Virus record (IMG/VR): IMGVR_UViG_3300033571_011013
Coordinates: 1 to 61,041 of that record
Source: a virus
Direction: 5' to 3' (one strand)
DNA: 61,041 bases
Below the pieces are notes generated by a model that was given only the letters and a program-made list of their open reading frames with translations, searched no databases and was not told where the DNA came from. Below are positions 2,368 through 61,041 of the stretch, in pieces (position 1 is the stretch's first letter; each line of letters begins with the position of its first letter). The translations under genes and the position numbers were made by a program.

Positions 2368-4260
2368 ATGGCTAACGAAAGATTTGTAAGTCCGGGTGTA
2401 TTCACGAGAGAGAAAGACCTAAGTTTCCTTCCTCAAGAAATACAATCAATCGGAGCAGCAGTGATTGGCCCTACATTATACGGCCCTGCATTTAGACCTA
2501 CTACAATATCAAATTATTCAGAATACCTTAGAGCTTTTGGTAATAGCTTTATCAGTGGTTCAGGAGCTTATGCTCAAGAATATAAGTTCTTAACAAACTA
2601 TACTGCTCAAGAATATCTAAGATACGGAGATAATTTAACCGTTGTAAGAATTATAAACAGTAATGCAACTATAGCAAGAACTAATGTTGTAAGTTCAGGT
2701 TCCTTTAAATCATTTAGAAATAGAGGTAAAACTAAAACCGATCTAACTGCATCATTCTTTAATGAGGCATCTGCTTCATTTAAGATACATTTGATGTCAG
2801 AAGGTTTATATGGTAATAGTGGTACTACTATAGCTTCTAATAATGGTATAGAAGACCCATCAACTACTCAAACTTTAGGATTACTTTCTTCAACTTTAGG
2901 AACTCGATATAATTTCCGTTGGGAAGTAAATAATGTAAACTTGAAGAGAGGTACATTTAATCTTGTTTTAAGAAGAGGTGACGATAGAACGGGTAGAAAA
3001 GTTGTTATTGAGCAATTTAATAATGTGTCATTAGATCCTAATGATTCAGGGTACTTACCAAGAATTGTAGGAGATCAAGTATATACACTTAGGGATACAG
3101 GTACAGGAAGACCTTACCTACAATTATCAGGTTCTTATCCAAATCGTTCAAGATACATACGAGTACAAGTTCTTAAAACAACTTTAAATTATTTGAACGA
3201 AGCAGGTGGTATTAGAAGTGGAGCATTATCTGCATCATTACCTGCTGCTGTGTCAGGAACTTTTGCTTTCGGTAGCGATGGATATGTTCAACATCCAAGA
3301 GCTTTTTATGATAAAATTGTAGCAAGTAATACTCAAGGATTTAACTTATCTCAAGGTGCAGCAGGTATTAGCGGTTCTACTGCTTATTATGATGCATTGG
3401 ATATTTTATCTAATGCTGATGAGTATGATGTAAATATGTTGTTCATGCCGGGAATTCTACAAGAAGCAGGTGGTAAACATAGTGATATCCTAACTCACGC
3501 TATCGCAATGTGCGAAGAGAGAGGTGACGTTTTCTTAGTAGCAGATCCAACTAAATACGGAGATTCGATAGGTCAAGCTCAATTAGCAGGTGAGTCAAGA
3601 AACTCCAACTATGCAGCTATGTACTACCCATGGGTTCAAGTAGCGGATCCTGATTTGAACAGAAACGTATGGCTTCCACCATCATGTTTAGTAGCAGGTG
3701 TACTATCATTTAATGATTATGTTAGTTTCCCATGGTTTGCTCCTGCGGGTTTGAATAGAGGTGGAATTGATATTGCAGTACAAGTGGAAACTAAATTATC
3801 TACCTCAATGAGAGATGATTTATATGCAAGTAATATAAACCCAATAGCTACTTATCCAAGAGATGGAGTTGTTGTTTGGGGTCAGAAAACACTACAGAAG
3901 AAACGTTCTGCATTAGATAGAATAAACGTTAGACGTTTATTAATTGCAGCTAAGAAATTTGTAGCATCTACTTCAAGATATTTAGTATTCGAACAAAATA
4001 CTGTTCAAACGAGAAAAAGATTTGTTGATATCGTAACACCTTATTTCACAGATATTAGACAGAAACAAGGACTCTATGATTTTAGGGTAGTGATGGATGA
4101 ATCTAACAATACTGCTGAAGTAATTGATAGAAATGAACTACGAGGTGCTATTTATTTGAAACCAACGAGAACTGCGGAATTTGTAATAATTGATTTCTTT
4201 GTGTTACCTACAGGTGCAGTATTCCCAAGTGATACTCCTGAAGGATCGGGAAATAATTAA
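2368..4260 (+). CDS. Contractile tail sheath protein (gp18-like)
   Basis: 630 residues, against 659 for T4 gp18. The N-terminus (FVSPGVFTREKDLSFLP, then IGAAVIGPTLYGPAF) is the typical sheath N-terminal arm and 'G-x-x-GPA' start. The C-terminus carries the conserved core strand region (VQTRKRFVDIVTPYF, TAEFVIIDFFVLPTG) found in contractile sheaths. It polymerises around the tube and drives contraction. Its position just before the tube gene is conserved in T4-like phages. Codon use is slightly richer in C-ending codons than the neighbours, as expected for a highly expressed virion gene. Confidence 0.95.
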   Translation: MANERFVSPGVFTREKDLSFLPQEIQSIGAAVIGPTLYGPAFRPTTISNYSEYLRAFGNSFISGSGAYAQEYKFLTNYTAQEYLRYGDNLTVVRIINSNATIARTNVVSSGSFKSFRNRGKTKTDLTASFFNEASASFKIHLMSEGLYGNSGTTIASNNGIEDPSTTQTLGLLSSTLGTRYNFRWEVNNVNLKRGTFNLVLRRGDDRTGRKVVIEQFNNVSLDPNDSGYLPRIVGDQVYTLRDTGTGRPYLQLSGSYPNRSRYIRVQVLKTTLNYLNEAGGIRSGALSASLPAAVSGTFAFGSDGYVQHPRAFYDKIVASNTQGFNLSQGAAGISGSTAYYDALDILSNADEYDVNMLFMPGILQEAGGKHSDILTHAIAMCEERGDVFLVADPTKYGDSIGQAQLAGESRNSNYAAMYYPWVQVADPDLNRNVWLPPSCLVAGVLSFNDYVSFPWFAPAGLNRGGIDIAVQVETKLSTSMRDDLYASNINPIATYPRDGVVVWGQKTLQKKRSALDRINVRRLLIAAKKFVASTSRYLVFEQNTVQTRKRFVDIVTPYFTDIRQKQGLYDFRVVMDESNNTAEVIDRNELRGAIYLKPTRTAEFVIIDFFVLPTGAVFPSDTPEGSGNN

Positions 4261-6165: not shown

Positions 6166-9100
6166 TGGCAAATAGGAAAGACCCTAAGAAAGAATTAGAA
6201 GATTTAGGAAAAGCAGCTCGACAAGAAGCAGCTGATGGTGCATTAGATATACAAAATTTACAAACCAAGTTAAAAGATTTCTTTAAAGAAAATAATAATT
6301 TAACATCAAAGCAGTTAAAGGATATTAAGGAAATACTTAAAAACTACAAAGAGTTATCTAAAGAGTTAAAGAATATAGATGTATCCAATGAAGATTATAA
6401 AAATGTTGTAGAAGAGATATTAGAAATCTTAGAAGATTCTAATAAAGAGTTACAAGTCAGTGCTTCAATATACGAAGAATTAAATAAGTTAATAGGAAAA
6501 CAATTATCAGAATTAAACAAATCATCTTCGGTAAAAGAAAAGTTAAATAACTTAGATCATGAGAATATAGGACTTATATCTAAGAATAATATGTCATTGG
6601 ATGCGAGTATATCTCTGTTGAGGGATAAAATAAGGCTAATAGATTATGCAAAGACATTGATGGATATCAGTGAGAATAGAGGTATTCTTGTAGATTCTGA
6701 TATGTTTCAACAGTTGATAAATAAAGGAGTTCAATTTAGTGATACTGTAAATAGTTTAAAATCTGAATTAGATGGTTTAAATACTAAATTATCGGAAACA
6801 AGTAAAGACGATGATTCTGAGAGAGCTTCAATACTTGAGGATATAAAATCTACGAAGTCAAAGTTATCGGATATGGCGTATGATGAATTACAGAATAACA
6901 AAAAATCATTAAATACGTTAAAGTCAGAACTTGGAGTTAGAGAGGAAATAAATGATGCTTTTGAAGATTATGTTAAAAAAGTAGATACATCATATACGAA
7001 ATATGCTGCTATAGCTAATATGATTCCATTTTTTGGAAAAGGTTTATCAAAAGCTTTTCTACAAGCTAAGGATATATCAATTGAAGCAGGTACAGCTATT
7101 AGAGATGTTTTTATGGAGACGAGAGACCCTATAAAAGCATTAGCAGCGGGTATGAAGGTTATGAGAGGTCATATTGGTATGATGGGCCCTATCATAGGTG
7201 CAATGGTATTTGCATTCAAAGGAGTACATTCCTTACTAAGTTCTATAAATGAAATTACTAAAGGTATACAAGCTGAGACAGGATTAGCATCTGTTCAAGC
7301 TTATGATTTATATAAGAATGCTTTATCTGCACAAACTTCATTTCATAATCAATTATCAACTTTAGAAGATATTGTTAATGTACAAAAGGGGTGGGTAAAT
7401 AATTACTCAAGATTTGCACAATTAACGGATACGACATTAGTACAGATATCAGATGCTGCAAAGGTATTTGGATATACTGCTGAGACTGCTGCTCAATTGC
7501 AGGGTACTTTTATGGAGTTAGGTGCTGACGAAAGTATGGCAGGAAATATGCAAGTAGCAGTGGGTAATTTGGCGAAGGCTAATAAGTTAGCTCCCGGAGT
7601 GATTACAAAAGACTTGATTGAAAACTCCGAGTTTCTCGCAACAAACTTTGCAGGAATGCCCATTGAAGCAGCCAAAGCAGCAATAGAGGTTAGAAAGTTA
7701 GGATTTAGTCTATCACAAGCAGCTAAGATACAAGATCATTTATTTGATGTTCAAGGTAGTTTGACTGCACAGATGGAAGCATCTGTTGCTATGGGTAAAC
7801 TTATTGATGTCAGTGCTGCAAGAAATTATGCTTTACAGGGAGAGACTGTGAAGATGATGCAAGAGATATCAAAACAAGCAGGTACTTACGCTGAGTTTCA
7901 AAGTGCATCTGTTCCACAAAGAATGCTATTAGCAAAAGCTTTTGGTATGGAAGTTGGGGAGCTGCAAAAGAGTTTATACATTAGAGAAAAGCTCTCAGGA
8001 CTTACAGAAGAAGAACAGAAGTATGCTTTAGACCATTTAAAAACTTTGGATGGTGTAGAAAAAATGAGTGCAGGTCAATTAAAATCTGAAATATCAAAAG
8101 CTCAACAAGCTGAAAGATTTGATGTAGCATTGAGTAAGATTAAGAATGCTCTAATAAAAGCAGTATTGCCATTAGTTGAAGCATTAGTTCCTGTATTAGA
8201 GACTGCGTCAAATATATTATCAGGAATAGCACTTATAATAAAAGGAATTGGATACGGATTTCAAGTTATAGGATATTTTGTTGAAGCTTTTTTATATCCT
8301 TTAGAAATTATAAATGATATAATATTCAATGGAATTGGAGATGCTGTAAGAAAAGTAGGGGATGATTTAAGAGATGGTTGGTTAGGCCCATTAAAGGTTA
8401 TATTAGGAGGAATGTCAGCATTATATGTTGGATCTAAATTATTTACAAAATTAAACTTTTCAAAGGTAGCTGAATCTTTCAAAAGTATATTTAATATGGA
8501 TACTTTTAAAAATATACCTGACAAAGTTAAAGGTGTTTATGATAAAATAAAAGGAGTATTTAGTGGACAAGGTATTCAATCAAGTACACCTACTCCACCC
8601 AATGGTGCGAATGCAACCCCACCACCTGATAGTGGAGGAGGTATTGGAGACACATTGAATGAATCTATTCAAAACGTATCAGAATCTTCTGATAAAATTA
8701 AACCTAAGTCAGGTCAAAATGTAAAAGATTTCCTACAGAATTTAGCTATGGGTCTTAAATCTATGGGGAAAGGTAAAGTTGCAGTAGGAGCTCTTAATTT
8801 AATACCTACAGCAGTGGGCTTTGTAGCTATGATACCTGCTATGATTGGTATTAAATTAGCATCTACTATAGATGGTAAGAGTTTAAAACTTGGACTACAA
8901 GGATTAGCTTCAGGGTTAACATCTATGGGAAGAGGTAAAGTTGTTGGAGGTTCTGTTAATTTAATAGCTGCTTCTATAGGTTTTACAGCTATGATACCTG
9001 CCATAGCGGGTATCAAGTTGGCATCTGTGATAGATGGAGAGAAATTGAAAATAGGACTACAAGGATTAGCTTCAGGATTAACGTCTATGGGAAGAGGTAA

Positions 9101-10079
9101 AGTTGTTGGAGGTTCTGCAAGTTTAGTAGCTGCTTCTGTAGGATTTGTAGCTATGATACCTTCTATAATAGGCATGAAACTAATGTCTATGGTAGATGGT
9201 AAGAGTTTAAAACTTGGACTACAAGGATTAGCTACAGGATTAACAGCTATGGGAAATAGCAAAGTATTAATAGGTGCTGTTGCAATGGCAATATCCGCAG
9301 TTGCATTTATCGCAATGATACCTGCTGCAATAGGTATGGCAGCATTAGGTTTAGCTGCTCCATTGGCAGCTACAGGTTTAACATTATTAGGTACTGCATT
9401 ATCTACATTTGGAAGTATAATGATGAGTGGTGCAGCAATATTTGGGTTAGCAATACTAATAGGATCGGCTGTAGCATTAGGATATGCATTAAGTTTAGCA
9501 GCACCTGCTATACAGGCATTTGCTAATTCATTATCATCTATGACATTAGAGCAATTATTTGTAGTTGCTGCTATGGGGCCTGCCTTAGTAGGTTTTGGCA
9601 TAAGTGCTGCTGCTGCAAGTATTGCTTTATTAGCAGCTTCAGTAGGTTTTACTGTGTTTGCATTATCATTTTCTTACTTTGGAAGTGTCGTTCAACAGAA
9701 TGTAAATCCTATAAGTGAGTTATCGAAGTCAATAGAATCTTTAGTAGAAAATTTAAATAATTTACAAAATGTGGACATAGCATCCATATCTTCTAAGTTA
9801 AAAAATTTGGGAGCTGTATCAATGACAGCAAAAGTAACTACAGATTCTACTATAAATCCAAATCCTATAGATATAAAGAATAAGACTAAGACTGATAATG
9901 TATCGACTACAACCTTTGAAGATAGAAATACATCCTTACAGAGTAACAATACCAATGCTAAGATAGATAGATTAATAAATGTAATGCAACAATATGTTAA
10001 CGCAAATCCTCAGTTAGTTATAGAATTTGACGATGGTACAGTTAGTAAATTGAAATCTAAACTAAAGAAAACAATATAA
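6165..10079 (+). CDS. Tail tape measure protein
   Basis: 1304 residues, the longest gene of the window. Residues 1-270 are coiled-coil-like (Lys/Glu/Leu heptads). A central Ala-rich helical region follows, then a long hydrophobic part (about 660-1190) containing four 54-residue repeats and further membrane-like segments. The C-terminal tail ends in a polar stretch. Length, composition and position downstream of the chaperone fit a tape measure: it sets tail length inside the tube and is probably ejected into the host envelope. The pore-forming idea for the hydrophobic repeats is inference. Confidence 0.9.
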   Translation: MANRKDPKKELEDLGKAARQEAADGALDIQNLQTKLKDFFKENNNLTSKQLKDIKEILKNYKELSKELKNIDVSNEDYKNVVEEILEILEDSNKELQVSASIYEELNKLIGKQLSELNKSSSVKEKLNNLDHENIGLISKNNMSLDASISLLRDKIRLIDYAKTLMDISENRGILVDSDMFQQLINKGVQFSDTVNSLKSELDGLNTKLSETSKDDDSERASILEDIKSTKSKLSDMAYDELQNNKKSLNTLKSELGVREEINDAFEDYVKKVDTSYTKYAAIANMIPFFGKGLSKAFLQAKDISIEAGTAIRDVFMETRDPIKALAAGMKVMRGHIGMMGPIIGAMVFAFKGVHSLLSSINEITKGIQAETGLASVQAYDLYKNALSAQTSFHNQLSTLEDIVNVQKGWVNNYSRFAQLTDTTLVQISDAAKVFGYTAETAAQLQGTFMELGADESMAGNMQVAVGNLAKANKLAPGVITKDLIENSEFLATNFAGMPIEAAKAAIEVRKLGFSLSQAAKIQDHLFDVQGSLTAQMEASVAMGKLIDVSAARNYALQGETVKMMQEISKQAGTYAEFQSASVPQRMLLAKAFGMEVGELQKSLYIREKLSGLTEEEQKYALDHLKTLDGVEKMSAGQLKSEISKAQQAERFDVALSKIKNALIKAVLPLVEALVPVLETASNILSGIALIIKGIGYGFQVIGYFVEAFLYPLEIINDIIFNGIGDAVRKVGDDLRDGWLGPLKVILGGMSALYVGSKLFTKLNFSKVAESFKSIFNMDTFKNIPDKVKGVYDKIKGVFSGQGIQSSTPTPPNGANATPPPDSGGGIGDTLNESIQNVSESSDKIKPKSGQNVKDFLQNLAMGLKSMGKGKVAVGALNLIPTAVGFVAMIPAMIGIKLASTIDGKSLKLGLQGLASGLTSMGRGKVVGGSVNLIAASIGFTAMIPAIAGIKLASVIDGEKLKIGLQGLASGLTSMGRGKVVGGSASLVAASVGFVAMIPSIIGMKLMSMVDGKSLKLGLQGLATGLTAMGNSKVLIGAVAMAISAVAFIAMIPAAIGMAALGLAAPLAATGLTLLGTALSTFGSIMMSGAAIFGLAILIGSAVALGYALSLAAPAIQAFANSLSSMTLEQLFVVAAMGPALVGFGISAAAASIALLAASVGFTVFALSFSYFGSVVQQNVNPISELSKSIESLVENLNNLQNVDIASISSKLKNLGAVSMTAKVTTDSTINPNPIDIKNKTKTDNVSTTTFEDRNTSLQSNNTNAKIDRLINVMQQYVNANPQLVIEFDDGTVSKLKSKLKKTI
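8730..9377 (+). repeat. Four in-frame 162-bp repeats in the tape measure gene
   Basis: The marker GGACTACAAGGATTAGCT starts at 8892 and 9054, and the same marker with one or two changes at 9216, giving an exact 162-bp period (54 residues). A more diverged first copy begins near 8730. Each unit reads GL.SGLTSMGRGKV followed by two hydrophobic stretches ending AMIP and G.KL.S..DG. Copies 2 and 3 are nearly identical at DNA level, a sign of recent tandem duplication. Confidence 0.9.
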
Positions 10080-44142: not shown

Positions 44143-45093
44143 ATGGCAAAAAATGTAATTGTACCTCCACACATCGTAAACGATTTGAATCCTATCATGA
44201 CTCTTAGTCAGACAATAGGATGGGGAATTCAAAAGTTAAACATCTTAGATCTACATCAAAAAGGTTTTACAGGTAAAGGAGTTAAAATTGGAATCATAGA
44301 TTCAGGATGTGATTTAAGTCATCCTGATTTAAAGATACAAAGTTTTAAAAACTTTACAGAATCTAACAGTGCCGAAGATACGTCAGGTCATGGAACACAT
44401 GTAGCAGGTATAATTGCAGCACAAGGAAATAATTATGGAATTTTAGGAGTAGCTCCCGATGCTGAAATCCATATATATAAAGCATTAGATGGATCGAGTG
44501 GAACTATAAAAGGTGTTATAGATGCTTTAAAAGCAGCAATAGATGATGATATGGATATTATTAATATGTCTTTAGGTACACCATCTGAGGTAAGTGGTTT
44601 AGAAAAACTTTGCAAGAAGGCACAATCAAAAGGAATATCAGTAGTTGTAGCAAGTGGTAATAGCGGAATGCAAGAGAACTTCTACCCTGCTTCATATGAT
44701 TGTTGTATAGCTGTAGGAGCTATTGATGAGAGTATGAAAGTTGCTTATTTTACTACGTATGGTCAACAATTGGATGTAGTCGCACCGGGAGCAGAAATCC
44801 TCAGTACCTATCTCCAAGGATCCTACGCAGTTCTATCAGGTACATCCATGGCTGCACCATTTGTAAGTGGATGTTTAGCATTAATGAAACAATCAGGTAT
44901 TGATTTAAACTATAAAAGCATAACAGAATCAACTATAGACATCGAAAAACCTAATTTAGATGTTAAATCAGGATATGGTATAGTGAATCCATCTAAGAGT
45001 ATTACAGGAACTGATATCATTATTAATAAACCACAGACTAAACCCAAAAAGTGTTTATTCTGTCATATTAAAAGTTTTTTCAAAAAAAGTTAG
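44143..45093 (+). CDS. Subtilisin-like serine protease
   Basis: 316 residues. The full catalytic triad is present: VKIGIIDSGCDLSHPDL (Asp), DTSGHGTHVAGIIAA (His) and LSGTSMAAPFVSGCLALM (Ser), with oxyanion Asn in VVVASGNSGM. There is no signal peptide, and only about 40 residues precede the domain, so it is not a classical secreted pre-pro enzyme. The C-terminus is basic with CLFCHIKSFFKKS. It stands alone between a terminator and the next promoter. A late-type box suggests action in head maturation or lysis; both are inference. Confidence 0.9.
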   Translation: MAKNVIVPPHIVNDLNPIMTLSQTIGWGIQKLNILDLHQKGFTGKGVKIGIIDSGCDLSHPDLKIQSFKNFTESNSAEDTSGHGTHVAGIIAAQGNNYGILGVAPDAEIHIYKALDGSSGTIKGVIDALKAAIDDDMDIINMSLGTPSEVSGLEKLCKKAQSKGISVVVASGNSGMQENFYPASYDCCIAVGAIDESMKVAYFTTYGQQLDVVAPGAEILSTYLQGSYAVLSGTSMAAPFVSGCLALMKQSGIDLNYKSITESTIDIEKPNLDVKSGYGIVNPSKSITGTDIIINKPQTKPKKCLFCHIKSFFKKS

Positions 45094-54634: not shown

Positions 54635-54874
54635 ATGGCAGAGTTTAGCAAACAATATTGTGAGATGAATAATATGGGTTTCGAGGGAGACTTCGATATT
54701 TTAGAAGAGTTCGACACCTTATCTATTGGATACTATAAGTCTATGATATGTGAGGGATTTGGATTTGTTGCATTAGCCAAAGATGTAGATGGCAGATGCT
54801 TAGTAGGATTGAGAGACGATGATGGTAAAGTTAGTTGGGAATCTTATGATATTTTTATAAACAAACAAAAATAA
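54635..54874 (+). CDS. Hypothetical small acidic protein
   Basis: 79 residues (GFEGDFDILEEFDTLSIGYY, FGFVALAKDVDGRCLVGLRD). Small beta-rich fold, unrecognised. Confidence 0.6.
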   Translation: MAEFSKQYCEMNNMGFEGDFDILEEFDTLSIGYYKSMICEGFGFVALAKDVDGRCLVGLRDDDGKVSWESYDIFINKQK

Positions 54875-54879
54875 TAACT

Positions 54880-55056
54880 ATGGAGAGTAAGTTTAAAGTT
54901 GGAGATAAGGCATTTAAACCTAAAGGTTATGCATTTCCATGCACTATCATTTCAGTATTTGAAACTACTAAAGGTGATATTAGAGTTGTGGCTGAGATGG
55001 ACAACTACGGATTGTTACATATCTTTAACGAAAGTCAATTAGAATTAATCAATTAA
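54880..55056 (+). CDS. Small SH3-like hypothetical protein
   Basis: 58 residues, ATG 54880 to TAA 55054-55056. KFKVGDKAFKPKGYAFPCTI and IRVVAEMDNYGLLHIFNE read like a small five-strand barrel ('vGD.v..p......tI......vEm'). Common in phages, function unknown. Confidence 0.65.
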   Translation: MESKFKVGDKAFKPKGYAFPCTIISVFETTKGDIRVVAEMDNYGLLHIFNESQLELIN

Positions 55057-55067
55057 AAACTAAAGTT

Positions 55068-55325
55068 ATGATAAAAGAACGTGCTGAAGAATTTGTTAAT
55101 AAATTTACAGATGTGCAAGTAACCACCATAGGTTGTTTAGATGATGGCAATCCCTGTATATTTGGAAACACGATAGATTTTTCAGCTGCTAAAGAATGTG
55201 CTGTTATAGCTATTGATGAGATTCTATCATTATTAGAAATCTATGGTAATTATGGAATCATAACTTATTACGAGGATCTAAAAACTGAAATTTTAGATAA
55301 AAATTTTGGGAAGCGGAGCAAATGA
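55068..55325 (+). CDS. Hypothetical small protein
   Basis: 85 residues. The segment GCLDDGNPCIFGNTIDFSAA followed by KECAVIAIDEILSLL is conserved-looking. No family. Overlaps the next start (ATGA). Confidence 0.6.
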   Translation: MIKERAEEFVNKFTDVQVTTIGCLDDGNPCIFGNTIDFSAAKECAVIAIDEILSLLEIYGNYGIITYYEDLKTEILDKNFGKRSK

Positions 55326-55624
55326 AAGCATATAAGTTAGTAAGAAGGCTAAAAGATAATAGCATATCTCCACTATTTATAAACAAGAAACTAAGACTAC
55401 CTAAAGGTATATGGTTAGAAGCAGAGAATCATAAAACAAAAGGATTCAAGGAGAGGAAGGGATGGCACTGTACATTAGTTATGGAAGCACCTCACCTATC
55501 CAAGAAGAATAGAGTTTGGATAGAAGTAGATGTAGAGGATTATGAATTGTATAATAGACCTGAAAGTCAGGGAGGTACTTGGGTTCTTGCACAACGTATG
55601 AAAGTAGTAAGAATAGTAAATTAA
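55322..55624 (+). CDS. Conserved phage protein of unknown function
   Basis: 100 residues. LRLPKGIWLEAENHKTKGFK, ERKGWHCTLVMEAPHL and RPESQGGTWVLAQRMKVVR match a conserved protein I recall from many phages of unrelated hosts. Possibly a nucleic acid or ligand-binding beta fold. Confidence 0.7.
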   Translation: MKAYKLVRRLKDNSISPLFINKKLRLPKGIWLEAENHKTKGFKERKGWHCTLVMEAPHLSKKNRVWIEVDVEDYELYNRPESQGGTWVLAQRMKVVRIVN

Positions 55625-55629
55625 ATAAT

Positions 55630-56631
55630 ATGAAACAAAACAGTACCTCTAAAAAAGTATCACTATCTGAGATGGCAAATAGTATTAGTAAACTTTCAGA
55701 TACTTTTGTAGTATCTGAAGATAATCAATACAGTAAGATTGTTAGTCTTGGAAAGGATGTAGTCGATAGATTAAGAAAACAGAATAAAAATTTAGATTCT
55801 GAACTTAAAGATCCCATATATAAGTTTAAAGGTATATATGCTAAAGGAGGTGCTGCGAGATTAGCATTACAACTATATGATAATAAAATAGAGTATAAGT
55901 ATGAGGTTGTAAGAGATAAGGATTATGTGTATATATCTAAAGATTACGGAGATGCTTATAAAGAAGTTAGAGATTTTTGGATTGATAATTCCTATGATGA
56001 TAGAATGGAAATAGTTAGTTCTATAGAATCGTATCTTACAAGTAGAGACTTTACAGCTAATGAAGTTTTGCTTAGACCTGATGCACTCATATTCTCTCGG
56101 AGAGCTCTGAGAGATATATCTAAGAAAGTGATAAATCCAAAGTTATCATCATATAAAGATGTGTATTCTGATGGTAGTTACAATATTAGTAATGCTTTAG
56201 AAATCGATCCAAGAACTACTTCAAGACTTTTACTTTTCGCAGCGAGGTATAATTATAAAATTAATCCTAAATTTATAATAAACATTGAAAGTTTAGATAC
56301 ATTTATAATTTTAGTTGCCTTGATAAAATCATTTGAACTTAATATAGAAGATAAGTTCTTTGAATTATGTAAAGAATATGATTTAACGGAGGGTAGGAAC
56401 AGTTTAGATGAATGGTTAATGTATCTTATGAAATTACATTATAACTTTACATATGCATCTAAATATCCTAAAAACTTAGTGAATGTTTTAGCTTCCGATT
56501 ATGATAAGGCTGTAAATTATATAGATGAGTTAGAAGATGATTCTACATTAAAATTAGAACTTTTCAAAATGAAAAACTTAAATAAGTATTCTGATGAAGA
56601 GTATATAAAAAAATATTTAAAAAAGTATTAG
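55630..56631 (+). CDS. CCA-adding / poly(A) polymerase-like nucleotidyltransferase (diverged)
   Basis: 333 residues from ATG 55630, 5 nt after the previous gene. YKFKGIYAKGGAARLALQLY and YEVVRDKDYVYIS have the shape of the poly(A) polymerase head ('GG.vRD.ll....DiDi'), and SRDFTANEVLLRPDALIFS followed by RRALRDISKKVINP strongly resembles 'RRDFTiNA...d..g..id...kviR'. The first metal site is diverged. The C-terminal half is helical, as in tRNA nucleotidyltransferases. It may repair tRNA 3' ends, with the RNA ligase at 52332. Confidence 0.55.
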   Translation: MKQNSTSKKVSLSEMANSISKLSDTFVVSEDNQYSKIVSLGKDVVDRLRKQNKNLDSELKDPIYKFKGIYAKGGAARLALQLYDNKIEYKYEVVRDKDYVYISKDYGDAYKEVRDFWIDNSYDDRMEIVSSIESYLTSRDFTANEVLLRPDALIFSRRALRDISKKVINPKLSSYKDVYSDGSYNISNALEIDPRTTSRLLLFAARYNYKINPKFIINIESLDTFIILVALIKSFELNIEDKFFELCKEYDLTEGRNSLDEWLMYLMKLHYNFTYASKYPKNLVNVLASDYDKAVNYIDELEDDSTLKLELFKMKNLNKYSDEEYIKKYLKKY

Positions 56632-56632
56632 T

Positions 56633-57010
56633 ATGAAACAAAACAGTATATCTGAGAATACTTCTTTAGTAAACATTCTAAAGAACTTCATCACAGAAAA
56701 CTTGGGGAGCAGCCTCTCTCAAAAATATAATATAGATGTAGAAGTAGATGAGTATGAAGACTACATAGAACTGAAGAAGATAGTGGTACCTAAAGAACAT
56801 AGGAATAGAGGTATAGGAAGTGTAGTAATGAGTGAGTTAATAAAGTATAGTGAAACGAATAATAAAGACTTATTCGTAACACCTGATGCAGCCTATGGAG
56901 GTAATGTGAATAAACTAAACAAGTTCTATAGATCCTTTGGATTCAAACCAAACAAGGGGAGGGATAGAGACTTCAGGAGTAAAGAGTCTATGGTAAGGCG
57001 TAGTAAATAA
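56633..57010 (+). CDS. GNAT acetyltransferase
   Basis: 125 residues. KKIVVPKEHRNRGIGSVVMS (acyl-CoA loop R-x-x-G-I-G) and LFVTPDAAYGGNVNKLNKFY with RSFGF are GNAT motifs. The first 16 bases (ATGAAACAAAACAGTA) are identical to the start of the preceding gene, giving the shared N-terminus MKQNS. Residues 14-22 form a short helix (ILKNFITEN). Target unknown. Confidence 0.82.
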   Translation: MKQNSISENTSLVNILKNFITENLGSSLSQKYNIDVEVDEYEDYIELKKIVVPKEHRNRGIGSVVMSELIKYSETNNKDLFVTPDAAYGGNVNKLNKFYRSFGFKPNKGRDRDFRSKESMVRRSK

Positions 57011-57034
57011 TTTTATATTTTTTTTTTAAAAAAC

Positions 57035-57065
57035 TTGTTTTTTTAAATAAACTGTATTATATTTG
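57035..57065 (+). promoter_or_regulatory. Host-type promoter, -33 and -7
   Basis: TTG at 57035-57037 and TATATTTG at 57058-57065 with a 20-nt spacer, in the 92-nt gap before ATG 57103. Downstream T-runs and TTGTTATAAATAATC make the leader AT-rich. Confidence 0.6.
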
Positions 57066-57102
57066 CTGTTGTTATAAATAATCACTGATCACAAAACAAA
57101 AT

Positions 57103-57318
57103 ATGGACAAAGATGCAGGAAAAGGGTTAGACTATATCATAGTATTAACCATAGTATTTGTAGTACTTAAACTAACTGATACCATTGATTGGTCATGGTG
57201 GTGGGTACTATCACCACTCTTAATAAGATTCGGAATATTCATAGTATTAGGATTAATTGCTATATTGTATGTAGTACTTTCCGATATGGTAAAGAAGATA
57301 CGAAACAAGTTATATTAA
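57103..57318 (+). CDS. Two-span membrane protein
   Basis: 71 residues. Spans at about 11-29 (YIIVLTIVFVVLKLTDTI) and 38-60 (LIRFGIFIVLGLIAILYVVL) around a Trp-rich loop DWSWWWVLSP. I recall similar phage proteins labelled 'transmembrane Fragile-X-F protein'; the name gives no function. Confidence 0.75.
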   Translation: MDKDAGKGLDYIIVLTIVFVVLKLTDTIDWSWWWVLSPLLIRFGIFIVLGLIAILYVVLSDMVKKIRNKLY

Positions 57319-57340
57319 AAACCAAAAAAAAGTTGCGGAG

Positions 57341-57616
57341 ATGAACCCAATCCAATTCAAATCATTCAGCTGTAAGGTAGAGATGAGTACCTATGTAGCA
57401 GACAGTACTAAACAATCTATACTACTAAGAGATGTAGAAGACAATACACCTATAGCAAAGGCAACAGTGTATATAGAGAATCTTCAGGAGGGAGAGGTAG
57501 CTATAAAAGACTACTCAGAGAATGAAGGGATACTACAGGTACTTATAGAGAATAACGTAATAGAGTATCCACATAGAACACAGAACGGATTCCCTATCTG
57601 CTACATAAAGAAATAA
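57341..57616 (+). CDS. Hypothetical protein with raised G+C
   Basis: 91 residues. MNPIQFKSFSCKVEMSTYVA opens a beta-rich protein (VEDNTPIAKATVYIENLQEG). It is the last gene before the control region, and its codons use more C and G than most of the window. Unrecognised. Confidence 0.65.
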   Translation: MNPIQFKSFSCKVEMSTYVADSTKQSILLRDVEDNTPIAKATVYIENLQEGEVAIKDYSENEGILQVLIENNVIEYPHRTQNGFPICYIKK

Positions 57617-57637
57617 ACAAACTAAGATCGTATAGCA

Positions 57638-57658
57638 CCCTCCCCACCAAAGGGAGGG
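57638..57658 (+). terminator. GC-rich hairpin after 57341
   Basis: CCCTCCC and GGGAGGG pair across a 7-nt loop. No T-run follows directly (GGCTTATTGG), so it is a weak terminator or a structural element. It resembles the C/G-rich hairpins found later at 58494 and 59661. Confidence 0.5.
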
Positions 57659-57688
57659 GGCTTATTGGAAAATTAACTATACAGTTAT

Positions 57689-57844
57689 ATGAAGAGTATA
57701 AAGAGTAAAGTGTGTATTAAACTAATCGTGGTGTCAAATAAATTGTATGAGTCTAAGATACTGAGGGTAGTGAGGAGGGAGGAGATTAACTCAAAACAAT
57801 TGATAACTAACGTATTTGTTATGTTATTAACATTATGTGGATAA
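57689..57844 (+). CDS. Doubtful small ORF
   Basis: 51 codons from ATG 57689 (MKSIKSKVCIKLIVVSNKLY...), ending at the TAA inside the first DnaA-box unit. No promoter box or recognised domain. Its overlap with the repeat argues that it may be chance. Confidence 0.25.
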   Translation: MKSIKSKVCIKLIVVSNKLYESKILRVVRREEINSKQLITNVFVMLLTLCG

Positions 57845-57869
57845 CTATGTGGATAACTATGTGGATAAC
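57834..57869 (+). repeat. Three tandem 12-bp repeats, each with a perfect DnaA box
   Basis: TATGTGGATAAC repeats three times without a gap (57834-57845, 57846-57857, 57858-57869). Each holds TGTGGATAA, the exact complement of the consensus DnaA box TTATCCACA, at 57836, 57848 and 57860. They stand just right of the palindrome ATGTTATTAACAT. All lie in the same orientation at 12-bp spacing, roughly one helical turn, so DnaA would bind on the same face. Confidence 0.9.
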
Positions 57870-58012
57870 TTTTAGGTTTATTTGGTTGATGCTTGTAAGT
57901 GTGTGTTAAGGGAGGGGGATGTCAATGGAAAAAAATGAGTGTATCTGCCCTATTTTCATCCCGCCCTCCCTTTTTTTTCACAGGAAATCTATTTTTAAAT
58001 TTTAAATTTTAA

Positions 58013-58336
58013 ATGATGAAACCCTTTACTGACAACAAGTCTGTTAATTTAAAATACAATTACTTTGAAATAAAATATAAAATTAAAAATGAAAATGATT
58101 TTAATATTTTAAAAAGTATAATTAAAAATGATAATTTAAAATATAGGGATGATCATGAATCTGATTCTATTTTTAAATTATCTTCCAAGGTTGATGGTAT
58201 AAAATATTTAGAGTATTTAAATGATCAGGCATACTTCCTTAACATCATAGGGAGGGATCTATATGAAAAGAATAAGAGGAGTATAAATGATAAAGATTGT
58301 TTAGACTTTTACGATATACATGTTTTTGTGGTTTAA
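58013..58336 (+). CDS. Hypothetical AT-rich gene
   Basis: 107 residues (or 106 from ATG 58016). Lys/Asn/Asp-rich, alpha/beta layout (YFEIKYKIKNENDFNILKSI; GIKYLEYLNDQAYFLNIIGR). Much lower G+C than its right-hand neighbours. Unrecognised. Ends just before a terminator and the first repeat module. Confidence 0.6.
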   Translation: MMKPFTDNKSVNLKYNYFEIKYKIKNENDFNILKSIIKNDNLKYRDDHESDSIFKLSSKVDGIKYLEYLNDQAYFLNIIGRDLYEKNKRSINDKDCLDFYDIHVFVV

Positions 58337-58370
58337 GTGTGTGCTTTGCTTTTTCGTTGTCATTGTGTTG

Positions 58371-58400
58371 ATGGAGGGTCTTTATGATCCTCCATTTTTG
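58371..58400. terminator. Terminator, module copy 1
   Basis: ATGGAGGGTC and GATCCTCCAT form a 10-bp stem (one G-T) around TTTAT (58371-58395), followed by a five-T run. It ends gene 58013 and directly precedes the 52-nt repeat. Confidence 0.85.
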
Positions 58401-58452
58401 ATTTACCTATAAGGTACTTGATGAAATGAGATAATTGCGTGTTTGATCTTTG
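58401..58452 (+). repeat. 52-nt regulatory repeat, copy 1
   Basis: Starts with ATTTACCTATAAGGTA, whose TACCTATAAGGTA is a perfect inverted repeat (arms TACCT/AGGTA), and ends ATGAGATAATTGCGTGTTTG ATCTTTG. Five differences from copy 2, all in the stretch after the palindrome. The final GATCTTTG is one base off TAnnTTTG, so the element may be an operator-promoter. Confidence 0.85.
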
Positions 58453-58470
58453 CACACTTTCGGAGTGGAT

Positions 58471-58512
58471 CCTCCCCTCCCCTACCCCATCCACCACCTC
58501 CCCGAAGGTGGG
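58471..58512 (+). repeat. C-rich tract and hairpin, module copy 1
   Basis: Runs of C separated by T/A/CA (CCTCCCCTCCCCTACCCC) followed by CCACCT...AGGTGG with a 6-nt loop (58494-58511). The minus strand carries matching G-runs able to form a G-quadruplex. Highly unusual in this AT-rich sequence; the same type of tract recurs at 59641 and 61031. Confidence 0.8.
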
Positions 58513-58546
58513 AAAATACATTAACAAAATTTTAACATATGGGTAC

Positions 58547-58578
58547 TTGCAATTGTGCAAACTAATGTTGTAGATTTG
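58547..58578 (+). promoter_or_regulatory. Host-type promoter before the DUF932 gene
   Basis: TTG at 58547-58549 and TAGATTTG at 58571-58578 with a 21-nt spacer; ATG 58611 is 32 nt downstream. Two TTAACA motifs stand upstream (58521-58536), as they do before the next gene. Confidence 0.65.
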
Positions 58579-58610
58579 CATCAACAATCAACCAAAAAAA
58601 AAACATTGTT

Positions 58611-59459
58611 ATGATTAACGAACTAAGCTTACAAAATCTAATTTCATTGGCACCTGCTATCAAAAGTGCGGGAGCCGTATCTACAGTATCCAAGAGATAC
58701 ACATTCATCTCTTCTATGCAAGTAATAGAAGACATGATTAAATTAGGTTGGACACCTGTAGCTGCAAAGCAGAAGAGGTCTAAGACTACAAACCCATACG
58801 GGCAACACAAAGTAGAATTCAGGATTAACAAACCTATTGTTATTAAGAAAGCTACAGAGGAGGGAATGAGAGATGACGTAATATACCCACAGGTAACATT
58901 CATCAATAGCCATGATGGTAAGTCATCCTTCAGGTTCTATGCGGGTCTATTCCGCTTAGTATGTGAGAACGGACTGTCTGTACCTGTAAAAATTAATAAT
59001 GAGTCATTCTCAGATGGCTTCAGGATTAAGCATACTGACTATACCATGGAGTCTTTGAGAGAGACCATGTTCAAGTTAGTGTCCAAAATAGTTGATTCCT
59101 TGGAGCCTATTCACAAGATGCAGAAAAAGGTTCTAACCATCACCGAGGCAAGGACATTCGCAGCAAAGGCATTAGCCATCAGAAATAACATACCTGAAGA
59201 GGGTGTTGCAGATTACATAGGTAGTGTAGAATCCCTCACTTTAGATTCCATGCTATGGACTAAGAGAAGAGAGGATGAAGGTATCAACTTATGGACTGTA
59301 TTAAATGTAGTTCAGGAGAAGGTAGTAGAGGGAGGATTCCTTAGCCACAGAAGTACTGAAGATGGAATCAGATTTCGTAAGGCTAAGAAGCTACAGGATA
59401 TGACCAAGTTACAGACAATCAACAGAAGGTTGTTTGAAGAGGCAGAGATACTGTTATAG
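58611..59459 (+). CDS. DUF932 family protein
   Basis: 282 residues. YPQVTFINSHDGKSSFRFYA followed by GLFRLVCENGLSVP is the core of DUF932 ('..NShDg..a....gl.RlvC.NGl'). N- and C-terminal parts are basic and helical. DUF932 proteins occur in phages, plasmids and in association with CRISPR systems; biochemical function unknown. G+C and C-ending codons are clearly higher than upstream, consistent with an early, highly expressed or more recently acquired gene. Confidence 0.88.
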   Translation: MINELSLQNLISLAPAIKSAGAVSTVSKRYTFISSMQVIEDMIKLGWTPVAAKQKRSKTTNPYGQHKVEFRINKPIVIKKATEEGMRDDVIYPQVTFINSHDGKSSFRFYAGLFRLVCENGLSVPVKINNESFSDGFRIKHTDYTMESLRETMFKLVSKIVDSLEPIHKMQKKVLTITEARTFAAKALAIRNNIPEEGVADYIGSVESLTLDSMLWTKRREDEGINLWTVLNVVQEKVVEGGFLSHRSTEDGIRFRKAKKLQDMTKLQTINRRLFEEAEILL

Positions 59460-59540
59460 TCTATATATAGTTACGTAGGGGGGATTGGTGAACTCATCAT
59501 CCCCCAAAGATATGATTGATTACTTAGTGGTTTAGTTTGA

Positions 59541-59567
59541 TGGGAGGCTCTTAGTCTCCCATTTTTT
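59541..59567. terminator. Terminator, module copy 2
   Basis: TGGGAGGCT and AGTCTCCCA pair (one G-T) around CTT (59541-59561), followed by a six-T run. Directly abuts repeat copy 2. Confidence 0.85.
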
Positions 59568-59619
59568 ATTTACCTATAAGGTATCTGTACAAATGAGATA
59601 ATTGCGTGTTTGATCTTTG
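59568..59619 (+). repeat. 52-nt regulatory repeat, copy 2
   Basis: Same palindrome TACCTATAAGGTA at its left and GATCTTTG at its right. One base differs from copy 3, five from copy 1. Followed by TTAGATCCCTGAGA, shared with copy 3. Confidence 0.9.
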
Positions 59620-59640
59620 GGTACTTAGATCCCTGAGATA

Positions 59641-59676
59641 CCCCCCCCCTCCCCTACCCCCCCCCTTCGGGGAGGG
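59641..59676 (+). repeat. Poly-C tract with UUCG hairpin, module copy 2
   Basis: C-runs of 9, 4 and 9 bases divided by T and TA, then TTCG and GGGGAGGG. CCC-TTCG-GGG can form a UUCG tetraloop hairpin, and the minus strand has G-runs of 9, 4 and 9. The region 59460-59768 holds no gene, only the terminator, repeat, this tract and the promoter. Confidence 0.85.
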
Positions 59677-59710
59677 TCAGAAACATTAACATAATCTTAA
59701 CATAAGTACA

Positions 59711-59742
59711 TTTGCATTTGAATAGAATAGTATAGATATTTG
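59711..59742 (+). promoter_or_regulatory. Host-type promoter before 59769
   Basis: TTTG at 59711-59714, 20-nt spacer, GATATTTG at 59735-59742 (one mismatch to TAnnTTTG). Preceded by two TTAACAT(A) motifs at 59686-59705, the same arrangement as before 58611. Confidence 0.6.
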
Positions 59743-59768
59743 CAGAGAATTAAAATCAAAACAACCGT

Positions 59769-60332
59769 ATGAATACTACCACTACCATCATCGAAAGAAA
59801 GGTCATCACTATGAACCATGACCAACTTAAAGATTATCTTACAAGCATTCAGGGGATGCCGTTTACAGGTGTTACCCTGAAGACTGAAGTTAAACTCACT
59901 AAGAAGGCAGAAGCTATCTTAGGAGGTAAATTAACCAAGGTAGCAAATTATATCTTCTGTGCCAACAGAAGCTACCTGAAAGCGATAGAGACTACCATGA
60001 AGAAGGAAGGGTTAGACTTTGCCACATGGCAGTCAGCACCACTATGGAAAGGAGCAGTACGCATTAGTGACATAGTCAGATACTACCCACCTACGGGTAA
60101 CTACTATGCACAGTTCACGTTCTCAAAGAACAGTACTATCGAAACTAAGTACTATGTGAATGGCGTAGAAATAGATTACAAGGAGATAGCTACCCTATTG
60201 CCATCTTCCAAGGGTGAATCTATGAAGCAGAAATTAGCAGGTATCGAACATGACGTAAAGGTTATAAACCCAAAGCTATATTCTATCACTGAGATTAGAT
60301 TGGATAAATTTGACATTCACCACATAAACTAA
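59769..60332 (+). CDS. Hypothetical early-type protein
   Basis: 187 residues from ATG 59769; ATG 59811 (MNHDQLKDYL) is an alternative that removes a Thr/Ile-rich leader. Lys-rich N-terminal half (VKLTKKAEAILGGKLTKVAN) and a Tyr-rich centre (DIVRYYPPTGNYYAQFTFSK). No family recognised. Higher G+C than the bulk of the window. Confidence 0.7.
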   Translation: MNTTTTIIERKVITMNHDQLKDYLTSIQGMPFTGVTLKTEVKLTKKAEAILGGKLTKVANYIFCANRSYLKAIETTMKKEGLDFATWQSAPLWKGAVRISDIVRYYPPTGNYYAQFTFSKNSTIETKYYVNGVEIDYKEIATLLPSSKGESMKQKLAGIEHDVKVINPKLYSITEIRLDKFDIHHIN

Positions 60333-60337
60333 TAACC

Positions 60338-60550
60338 ATGAAAGTATACACATTTGAGATAGGCAGAGAGATTTATGAGTTCTACGACCTTAGAAAGGCT
60401 CGTAAGAGAGCAAGAGAAATCTCTAAAGAGACTAATGCGGAAGTTCTAATAACGTGTACCCACAAACCATCTTACAATCAGGATTGGTATACGGTGTTCC
60501 CTGATGGAACTTTCGTAACAGACATGAAAGGATTTAAGGCTAACAATTAA
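60338..60550 (+). CDS. Small hypothetical early-type protein
   Basis: 70 residues. MKVYTFEIGREIYEFYDLRK and RKRAREISKETNAEVLITCT resemble small phage alpha/beta proteins. The start context AATAACCATG also precedes 60597. Unknown. Confidence 0.65.
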   Translation: MKVYTFEIGREIYEFYDLRKARKRAREISKETNAEVLITCTHKPSYNQDWYTVFPDGTFVTDMKGFKANN

Positions 60551-60557
60551 AAAATCG

Positions 60558-60582
60558 GGGGAGATGCTAACAACATCTTCCC
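60558..60582 (+). promoter_or_regulatory. Hairpin just upstream of 60597
   Basis: GGGGAGATG (60558-60566) pairs with CATCTTCCC (60574-60582), one G-T, 7-nt loop. It would bury the ATG at 60564 and leaves ATG 60597 free, so I chose the latter start. A translational control or mRNA-stability element is possible. Confidence 0.5.
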
Positions 60583-60596
60583 ACAAACCAATAACC

Positions 60597-60752
60597 ATGG
60601 AAATAACACCTGAGATAGTAGAGAGCCTGTATAAGGACTACCACAACAAGAATCACTTTATATCTATGTTTGGAACCACAAAGTTCAGGTTCGTAGATGA
60701 GAAGAGATTAGTTAAAATGTATCAATTCCTAAATAAGAGAGTAAAGAGATGA
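60597..60752 (+). CDS. Small hypothetical early-type protein
   Basis: 51 residues from ATG 60597 (MEITPEIVESLYKDYHNKNH), chosen for the AATAACCATG context and because the upstream ATG 60564 lies in a hairpin. Helical, basic end. Stop overlaps the next start (ATGA). Confidence 0.6.
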   Translation: MEITPEIVESLYKDYHNKNHFISMFGTTKFRFVDEKRLVKMYQFLNKRVKR

Positions 60753-60919
60753 AAAAAGACAAAGTAAGAATATCCATCTACAAGAACGGAGTAGAGATTA
60801 GGCATCGCATAGTACGTGAGAAAGACGTACAATCTCATTTCGAAGATATGTTCGATATGGCAGGAGGAATGTACAACGGTAAGGATACGTTTTCCGTAAG
60901 AGTGAACCCAATACCATAA
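60749..60919 (+). CDS. Small hypothetical early-type protein
   Basis: 56 residues, ATG 60749 to TAA 60917-60919. MKKDKVRISIYKNGVEIRHR, then a short helix and KDTFSVRVNPIP. Coupled to the previous gene by an ATGA overlap. Unknown function. Followed by a terminator. Confidence 0.65.
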   Translation: MKKDKVRISIYKNGVEIRHRIVREKDVQSHFEDMFDMAGGMYNGKDTFSVRVNPIP

Positions 60920-60925
60920 CTCAGG

Positions 60926-60950
60926 AAGGCAGTCTAAAAGGCTGCCTTTT
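60926..60950. terminator. Terminator, module copy 3
   Basis: AAGGCAG (60926-60932) pairs with CTGCCTT (60942-60948), followed by TT. It abuts the third repeat copy, as in the other two modules. Confidence 0.8.
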
Positions 60951-60953
60951 GTA

Positions 60954-61005
60954 ATTTACCTATAAGGTATCTGTACAAATGAGATAATTGCGTGTTAGAT
61001 CTTTG
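60954..61005 (+). repeat. 52-nt regulatory repeat, copy 3
   Basis: Same palindrome TACCTATAAGGTA and end GATCTTTG; a single T-to-A change from copy 2. Followed by TTAGATCCCTGAGA and then G-run and C-run to the window end. Confidence 0.9.
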
Positions 61006-61025
61006 CAGCATTTAGATCCCTGAGA

Positions 61026-61041
61026 GGGGGCACCCCCCCCC
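61026..61041 (+). repeat. Terminal G/C homopolymer tract, module copy 3 (cut off)
   Basis: GGGGG-CA followed by at least ten C. The window ends inside this run, in the position where copies 1 and 2 carry their C-rich tracts. Probably an assembly break at a hard-to-read homopolymer. Confidence 0.75.

Follow-up and report, generated by a model that had tools for sequence, protein, structure and literature searches.

Near the end of the window, by which is meant the whole stretch of DNA analysed here (the 61,041-bp virus record IMGVR_UViG_3300033571_011013, probably a fragment), a short palindromic sequence recurs in front of unrelated genes, which raises the question of what the repeated unit does there. 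The answer that is judged rather probable is that the repeated modules are regulatory cassettes placed between genes, where they drive small genes of early type and also provide homology for gene shuffling. The tail sheath gene at 2368-4260 identifies the virus as a contractile-tailed phage, and among named phages it is closest to the Immutovirus genus of Flavobacterium phages (43.6% identity in the sheath, 34% in the DUF932 protein). The gene-proximal promoters of the window fit the Bacteroidota consensus TTTG / TAnnTTTG, as taken from PMC6847099, which makes a Bacteroidota host very probable. Elsewhere in the window, the longest ORF (1304 aa, without a family match) contains 162-nt tandem repeats at 8733-9281 and is probably the tape measure protein, and the ORF at 44143-45093 shows, by eye, the subtilisin-like serine protease motifs GHGTHVAG and SGTSMAAP.

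Anatomy of the repeated modules

The palindrome TACCTATAAGGTA is found exactly at 58404-58416, 59571-59583 and 60957-60969, which bears out the triplicated module described in a first-pass annotation, and neither an exact nor a one-mismatch copy occurs elsewhere in the window. A search for more copies in relatives, set beforehand as a test of that description, yielded four in a near-identical phage contig, IMGVR_UViG_3300042478_002320 (78.9 kb, probably also a fragment). Window copies 1-3 are referred to as W1-W3 and the copies in this relative as R1-R4, with R1-R3 being the positional orthologs of W1-W3. The features of the array are as follows.

58370..58396, plus strand: intrinsic terminator upstream of W1 (terminator scan)
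58404..58443, plus strand: W1 element (palindrome 58404-58416, spacer 58417-58424, AATGAGATAATTGCGTGTT 58425-58443)
58444..58519, plus strand: W1 C-rich hairpin-forming variable zone (RNA fold z -2.6; 71% identical to ortholog)
58521..58536, plus strand: TTAAC direct repeat, period 11 nt, after W1
58547..58578, plus strand: Bacteroidota-type promoter TTG...TAGATTTG (-7 element 58571-58578; consensus from PMC6847099)
58611..59459, plus strand: DUF932 protein, 282 aa, gene after W1
59539..59563, plus strand: intrinsic terminator upstream of W2 (terminator scan)
59571..59610, plus strand: W2 element
59611..59685, plus strand: W2 C-rich hairpin-forming variable zone (RNA fold z -4.8; 57% identical to ortholog)
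59686..59701, plus strand: TTAAC direct repeat, period 11 nt, after W2
59735..59742, plus strand: probable -7 element GATATTTG of the W2 promoter (one departure from TAnnTTTG)
59769..60332, plus strand: 187-aa orphan protein, gene after W2 (77.6% nucleotide identity to ortholog)
60338..60752, plus strand: two small ORFs, 60338-60550 and 60564-60752 (stretch absent from the relative at that place)
60926..60948, plus strand: terminator-like hairpin upstream of W3 with a short T run (by eye; 100% identical in the relative)
60957..60996, plus strand: W3 element
60997..61041, plus strand: W3 variable zone, start only (C run at contig end)

The repeat had been described as a 52-nt element. The repetition is real, but alignment of the seven copies resolves it into 40 nt, in which two conserved blocks, TACCTATAAGGTA (13 nt) and AATGAGATAATTGCGTGTT (19 nt), flank an 8-nt spacer that varies in six of its eight columns and never in length. 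The first block is a perfect 5-3-5 palindrome that is invariant in all seven copies, and the second is nearly so, the single departure being a change from GATAAT to TATAAT in R1, where the hexamer is preceded by TGn; these seven copies come from only two genomes and are not independent of each other. Similarity among the copies falls sharply after GTGTT. Within the window an 81-nt repeat unit aligns at 75-85% between copies, far above chance, and over 44 nt the copies are 86-98% identical to one another, the cores of W2 and W3 being 98% alike.

All seven copies share a single orientation and the same order (W3 being readable only to its C run), which in the readable copies runs from terminator to element, GC- or C-rich hairpin zone, TTAAC repeats, Bacteroidota-type promoter and gene. 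R3, the ortholog of W3, continues with a hairpin, TTAAC repeats, a promoter and a gene. The element thus stands behind a terminator, with about 160 nt separating it from the start codons downstream and more than 100 nt from the TAnnTTTG promoter. As the first-pass annotation had it, a terminator precedes each copy; its stems, however, differ among the three and lie outside the repeated sequence. The terminator scan recovered the first two, and the third is clear by eye. Each of the six testable hairpin zones folds better than shuffled sequences that kept base but not dinucleotide content (z from -2.0 to -4.8), despite their differing sequences, and these figures, like those for patchwork identity given below, are script-derived and depend on alignment in low-complexity C runs. 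A minus-strand G-quadruplex at the modules was considered and rejected by eye as impossible in R3 and R4.

The continuation of copies 1 and 2 with paired TTAACA motifs and a host-type promoter was confirmed, as was the unrelatedness of the neighbouring genes, one encoding a DUF932 protein and the other the 187-aa orphan; neither this protein nor a 350-aa neighbour had further relatives in protein searches. The proposal of an insulator/promoter cassette is upheld to the extent that the readable copies (W1, W2 and R1-R4) lie between the terminator of one gene and the promoter of the next, and the genes concerned may be early ones, judging from their position and promoter type.

Beyond the two phages the element was not encountered. 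The exact 15-mer TTTACCTATAAGGTA is present in 71 IMG/VR stretches, just one of which, IMGVR_UViG_3300042478_002320, has the rest of the element, and the second half searched alone in IMG/VR gave no additional relative. No copy was found in GTDB either, where 84,980 bacterial and archaeal species were scanned with one genome each, and the other palindrome matches in IMG/VR and GTDB are without the second block. Comparison of the array region at the DNA level with phage records gave no match, and 28 tail-sheath relatives yielded a single weak 14-nt match to the element. The contigs of the latter probably stop short of the region, since those checked for DUF932 or TTAAC boxes had none, with the exception of the near-identical relative itself, so absence from these phages is not implied.

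Patchwork identity between two near-identical phages

Over 54635-58369 the identity between the two phages is 99.1% (3703/3736 columns), and against this background the identity of the modules is uneven. For module 1 the terminator is 100% identical to that of the relative, the core 96%, the hairpin zone 71% and the promoter 97%, followed by a gene (DUF932) at 95.6%, with differences mostly in its first 300 nt; for module 2 the corresponding values are 100% for the terminator region, 84%, 57% and 99%. Across the array, then, the flanks follow orthology (terminators 97-100%, promoters 97-99%), whereas the core and hairpin zone do not. Indeed, the 52-nt stretch of W1 at 58392-58443 is identical to R2 and not to its positional ortholog R1, the first ~30 nt of the R2 hairpin zone equal R3, and the last ~38 nt of the R1 zone, TTAAC box included, equal R2. 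In parts of the element and hairpin zone a copy is closer to other copies of its own genome than to its ortholog, from which it follows that sequence is exchanged between copies.

Family B, a second type of cassette in the relative, has three copies (L092 2778-2885, 3575-3682 and 4473-4580) that lack the element and have another spacer. R4 is a hybrid in which a family B terminator stands directly before the family A element, which marks the junction between terminator and element as a place of exchange. Elsewhere in the relative, 12-nt repeats at L092 5-790 translate into QV-type tetrapeptide repeats in small opposite-strand ORFs.

Regulatory readings of the cassette and their rivals

In the cassette reading, the array would occupy a stretch of small, probably early genes in a contractile-tailed Bacteroidota phage. 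The terminator of each cassette is predicted to isolate one gene from the next, making each small gene an independent transcription unit, and the next gene would start from a host-type TTTG / TAnnTTTG promoter with helix-phased TTAAC repeats ~50 nt upstream of the -7 element. R2, like W2, has a -7 element one base off the consensus. The relative contains 10 period-11 TTAAC pairs where 0.47 would be expected, and no other period from 5 to 24 is enriched in this way; most of the pairs lie 47-51 nt upstream of a -7 element, R3 carries four repeats, and boxes are also present at promoters without the element. The phased repeats are a possible activator site of Bacteroidota promoters. Their 11-nt period resembles sites of the OmpR/PhoB family, a Pho-box reading for which the papers listed in a literature search included none on Bacteroidota, and the TTAAC motif is present in few of the host genomes tested. 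Two apparently unrelated phage contigs (L285 4617-4675; L286 859-917), found by searching for this TTAAC/-7 arrangement itself, have TTAAC pairs 47 nt before the -7 element. Because several genes have this cassette in front of them, its copies recombine, a process that makes the cassettes more uniform and could move genes from one to another.

The 40-nt element would most likely be a binding site with two contacts, the fixed internal spacing of its blocks suggesting a protein-DNA complex. Tentatively, it may act as a second promoter, for a phage-modified or phage-regulated polymerase. GATAAT (TATAAT in R1) would then be a -10-like hexamer, with the palindrome centred near -32, conservation ending at about +2 and the variable hairpin-forming zone providing the leader of the transcript; the second promoter is favoured because the hexamer with its TGn, the palindrome and the end of conservation are in register. 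Not every copy of the element matches the host sigma-ABfr consensus, and a GATAAT-like hexamer is not used by the host sigma factor (consensus in PMC6847099). The scan of 40 proteins against PHROGs found neither a sigma factor nor a regulator, which leaves the second-promoter step without a partner, and the restriction of the element to this array speaks against a general phage promoter class. Several other promoters in this phage do without the element. A sigma-54 or minus-strand promoter inside the element was rejected by eye, its consensus being unmatched. The sequence TATTTATA, which precedes seven gene starts by 21-43 nt (2325, 4278, 5929, 19603, 38092, 41881 and 44112), structural genes among them, is the probable late promoter motif of the window phage; it does not match the element, which was accordingly dismissed as a late promoter.

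The main rival to a second promoter, itself rather unlikely, is a plain operator, in which a dimeric phage or host regulator would bind TACCTATAAGGTA (and the second block) so as to repress or activate the downstream host-type promoter, the element being no promoter at all. A palindrome that is perfect in every copy, readable copies that all face the same kind of promoter, and a two-block architecture suited to a protein complex could feasibly reflect such a site, but the TAnnTTTG promoter is over 100 nt away, beyond a strong and variable hairpin zone, which is far for a simple operator, and no candidate regulator emerged from the PHROGs-scanned proteins. That the repeat is a recombination seam only, kept as homology by gene conversion and devoid of a regulatory role, draws on the clear exchange between copies and on hybrid R4; it is nonetheless improbable, as homogenisation alone leaves invariant blocks beside a diverging spacer and hairpin zone unexplained. 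It is very doubtful that the element is instead a dedicated cassette-exchange site, with a phage recombinase or nuclease acting at the palindrome or hairpin zone, although if true this would amount to an integron-like gene-swapping array in a phage, with promoters travelling along.

A structured RNA common to all copies, be it a riboswitch, sRNA or attenuator, could account for hairpin zones that are more stable than shuffles, yet it is very unlikely given that the six complete copies yield a weak consensus fold (-4.66 kcal/mol), that the palindrome pairs never vary, that the hairpin sequences differ between copies and that no Rfam family came near its gathering score for the modules. The other suggestion of the first-pass annotation, repeated replication-origin units, takes some encouragement from a trio of DnaA boxes and an AT-rich stretch ~500 bp upstream, but is highly improbable and was abandoned, since the modules have no DnaA boxes, iterons or AT-rich unwinding stretch and the origin-like feature is single-copy and separate. 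It comprises three exact DnaA boxes (TTATCCACA, minus strand, 57836-57868, 12-nt period) followed by the AT-rich stretch, and the region as a whole (57834-58012), conserved in the relative, is likely a replication origin in its own right. A similar 12-nt iteron array was observed in the DUF932 region of Immutovirus (L098 11091-11136), and the tandem 22-mer TGTGGATAACTATGTGGATAAC is present in over 100 IMG/VR stretches.

Comparison with known systems

The modules recall the promoter early stem-loop cassettes (PeSLs) of T4-like phages, reportedly described by Arbiol et al. in 2010 and Comeau et al. in 2014. As far as they are outlined in PMC4503421, and from general knowledge, PeSLs are composite promoter-terminator intergenic cassettes among small genes and are tied to gene shuffling. 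The likeness lies in repeated promoter-terminator intergenic cassettes among small unrelated genes, with gene shuffling between close relatives. Judged by sequence, a putative host-polymerase promoter and a stem-loop terminator are combined in one intergenic unit; near-identical copies populate a small-gene region (three in the window, four in the relative, plus the second family); and shuffling is evident from the patchwork, the allele difference of gene 2, the ORFs gained or lost and the hybrid cassette. However, the sigma-70 early promoter and sequence kinship with T4 that this outline would call for are lacking, the promoters here being of Bacteroidota type. Because promoter type and sequence differ, the modules are not filed as PeSLs, and unlike those outlined they add a two-block palindromic element, a hypervariable hairpin zone and helix-phased TTAAC repeats.

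In cluster K mycobacteriophages, SAS/ESAS are short conserved repeats of unknown function, with inverted-repeat parts, that likewise precede a subset of non-structural genes (PMC3203893). The SAS, however, is a 13-bp sequence, GGGATAGGAGCCC, within a few nt of start codons, whereas the present element differs in sequence and lies ~160 nt upstream, and the inverted repeats of the ESAS, 17 bp long, are imperfect, in contrast to the perfect 13-nt palindrome found here (PMC3203893). The Flavobacterium phage vB_FspM_immuto (MW353176), a distant relative (sheath ~44%, DUF932 34% identical), has 15 promoter-like repeats, TTG...TAtnTTTAGGTAT / TTG...TATaTTTAGGTAT, before small genes in its DUF932 region (L098 5689-16075), but neither a two-block element nor TTAAC boxes were found there. 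The hairpin promoters of the N4 virion RNA polymerase are palindromes with 5-bp arms and a 3-nt loop, as in TACCTATAAGGTA, though the second block has no N4 counterpart. No virion RNA polymerase was recognised in the window, both contigs probably being fragments.

A pair of phages that are 99% identical allows exchange of this kind to be mapped. Bacteroidota phages would appear to have a counterpart to the T4-like cassette shuffling of small genes, built from other promoter signals, and the element and the phased TTAAC repeats offer defined sites at which the regulation of these phages, so far little studied, can be tested.
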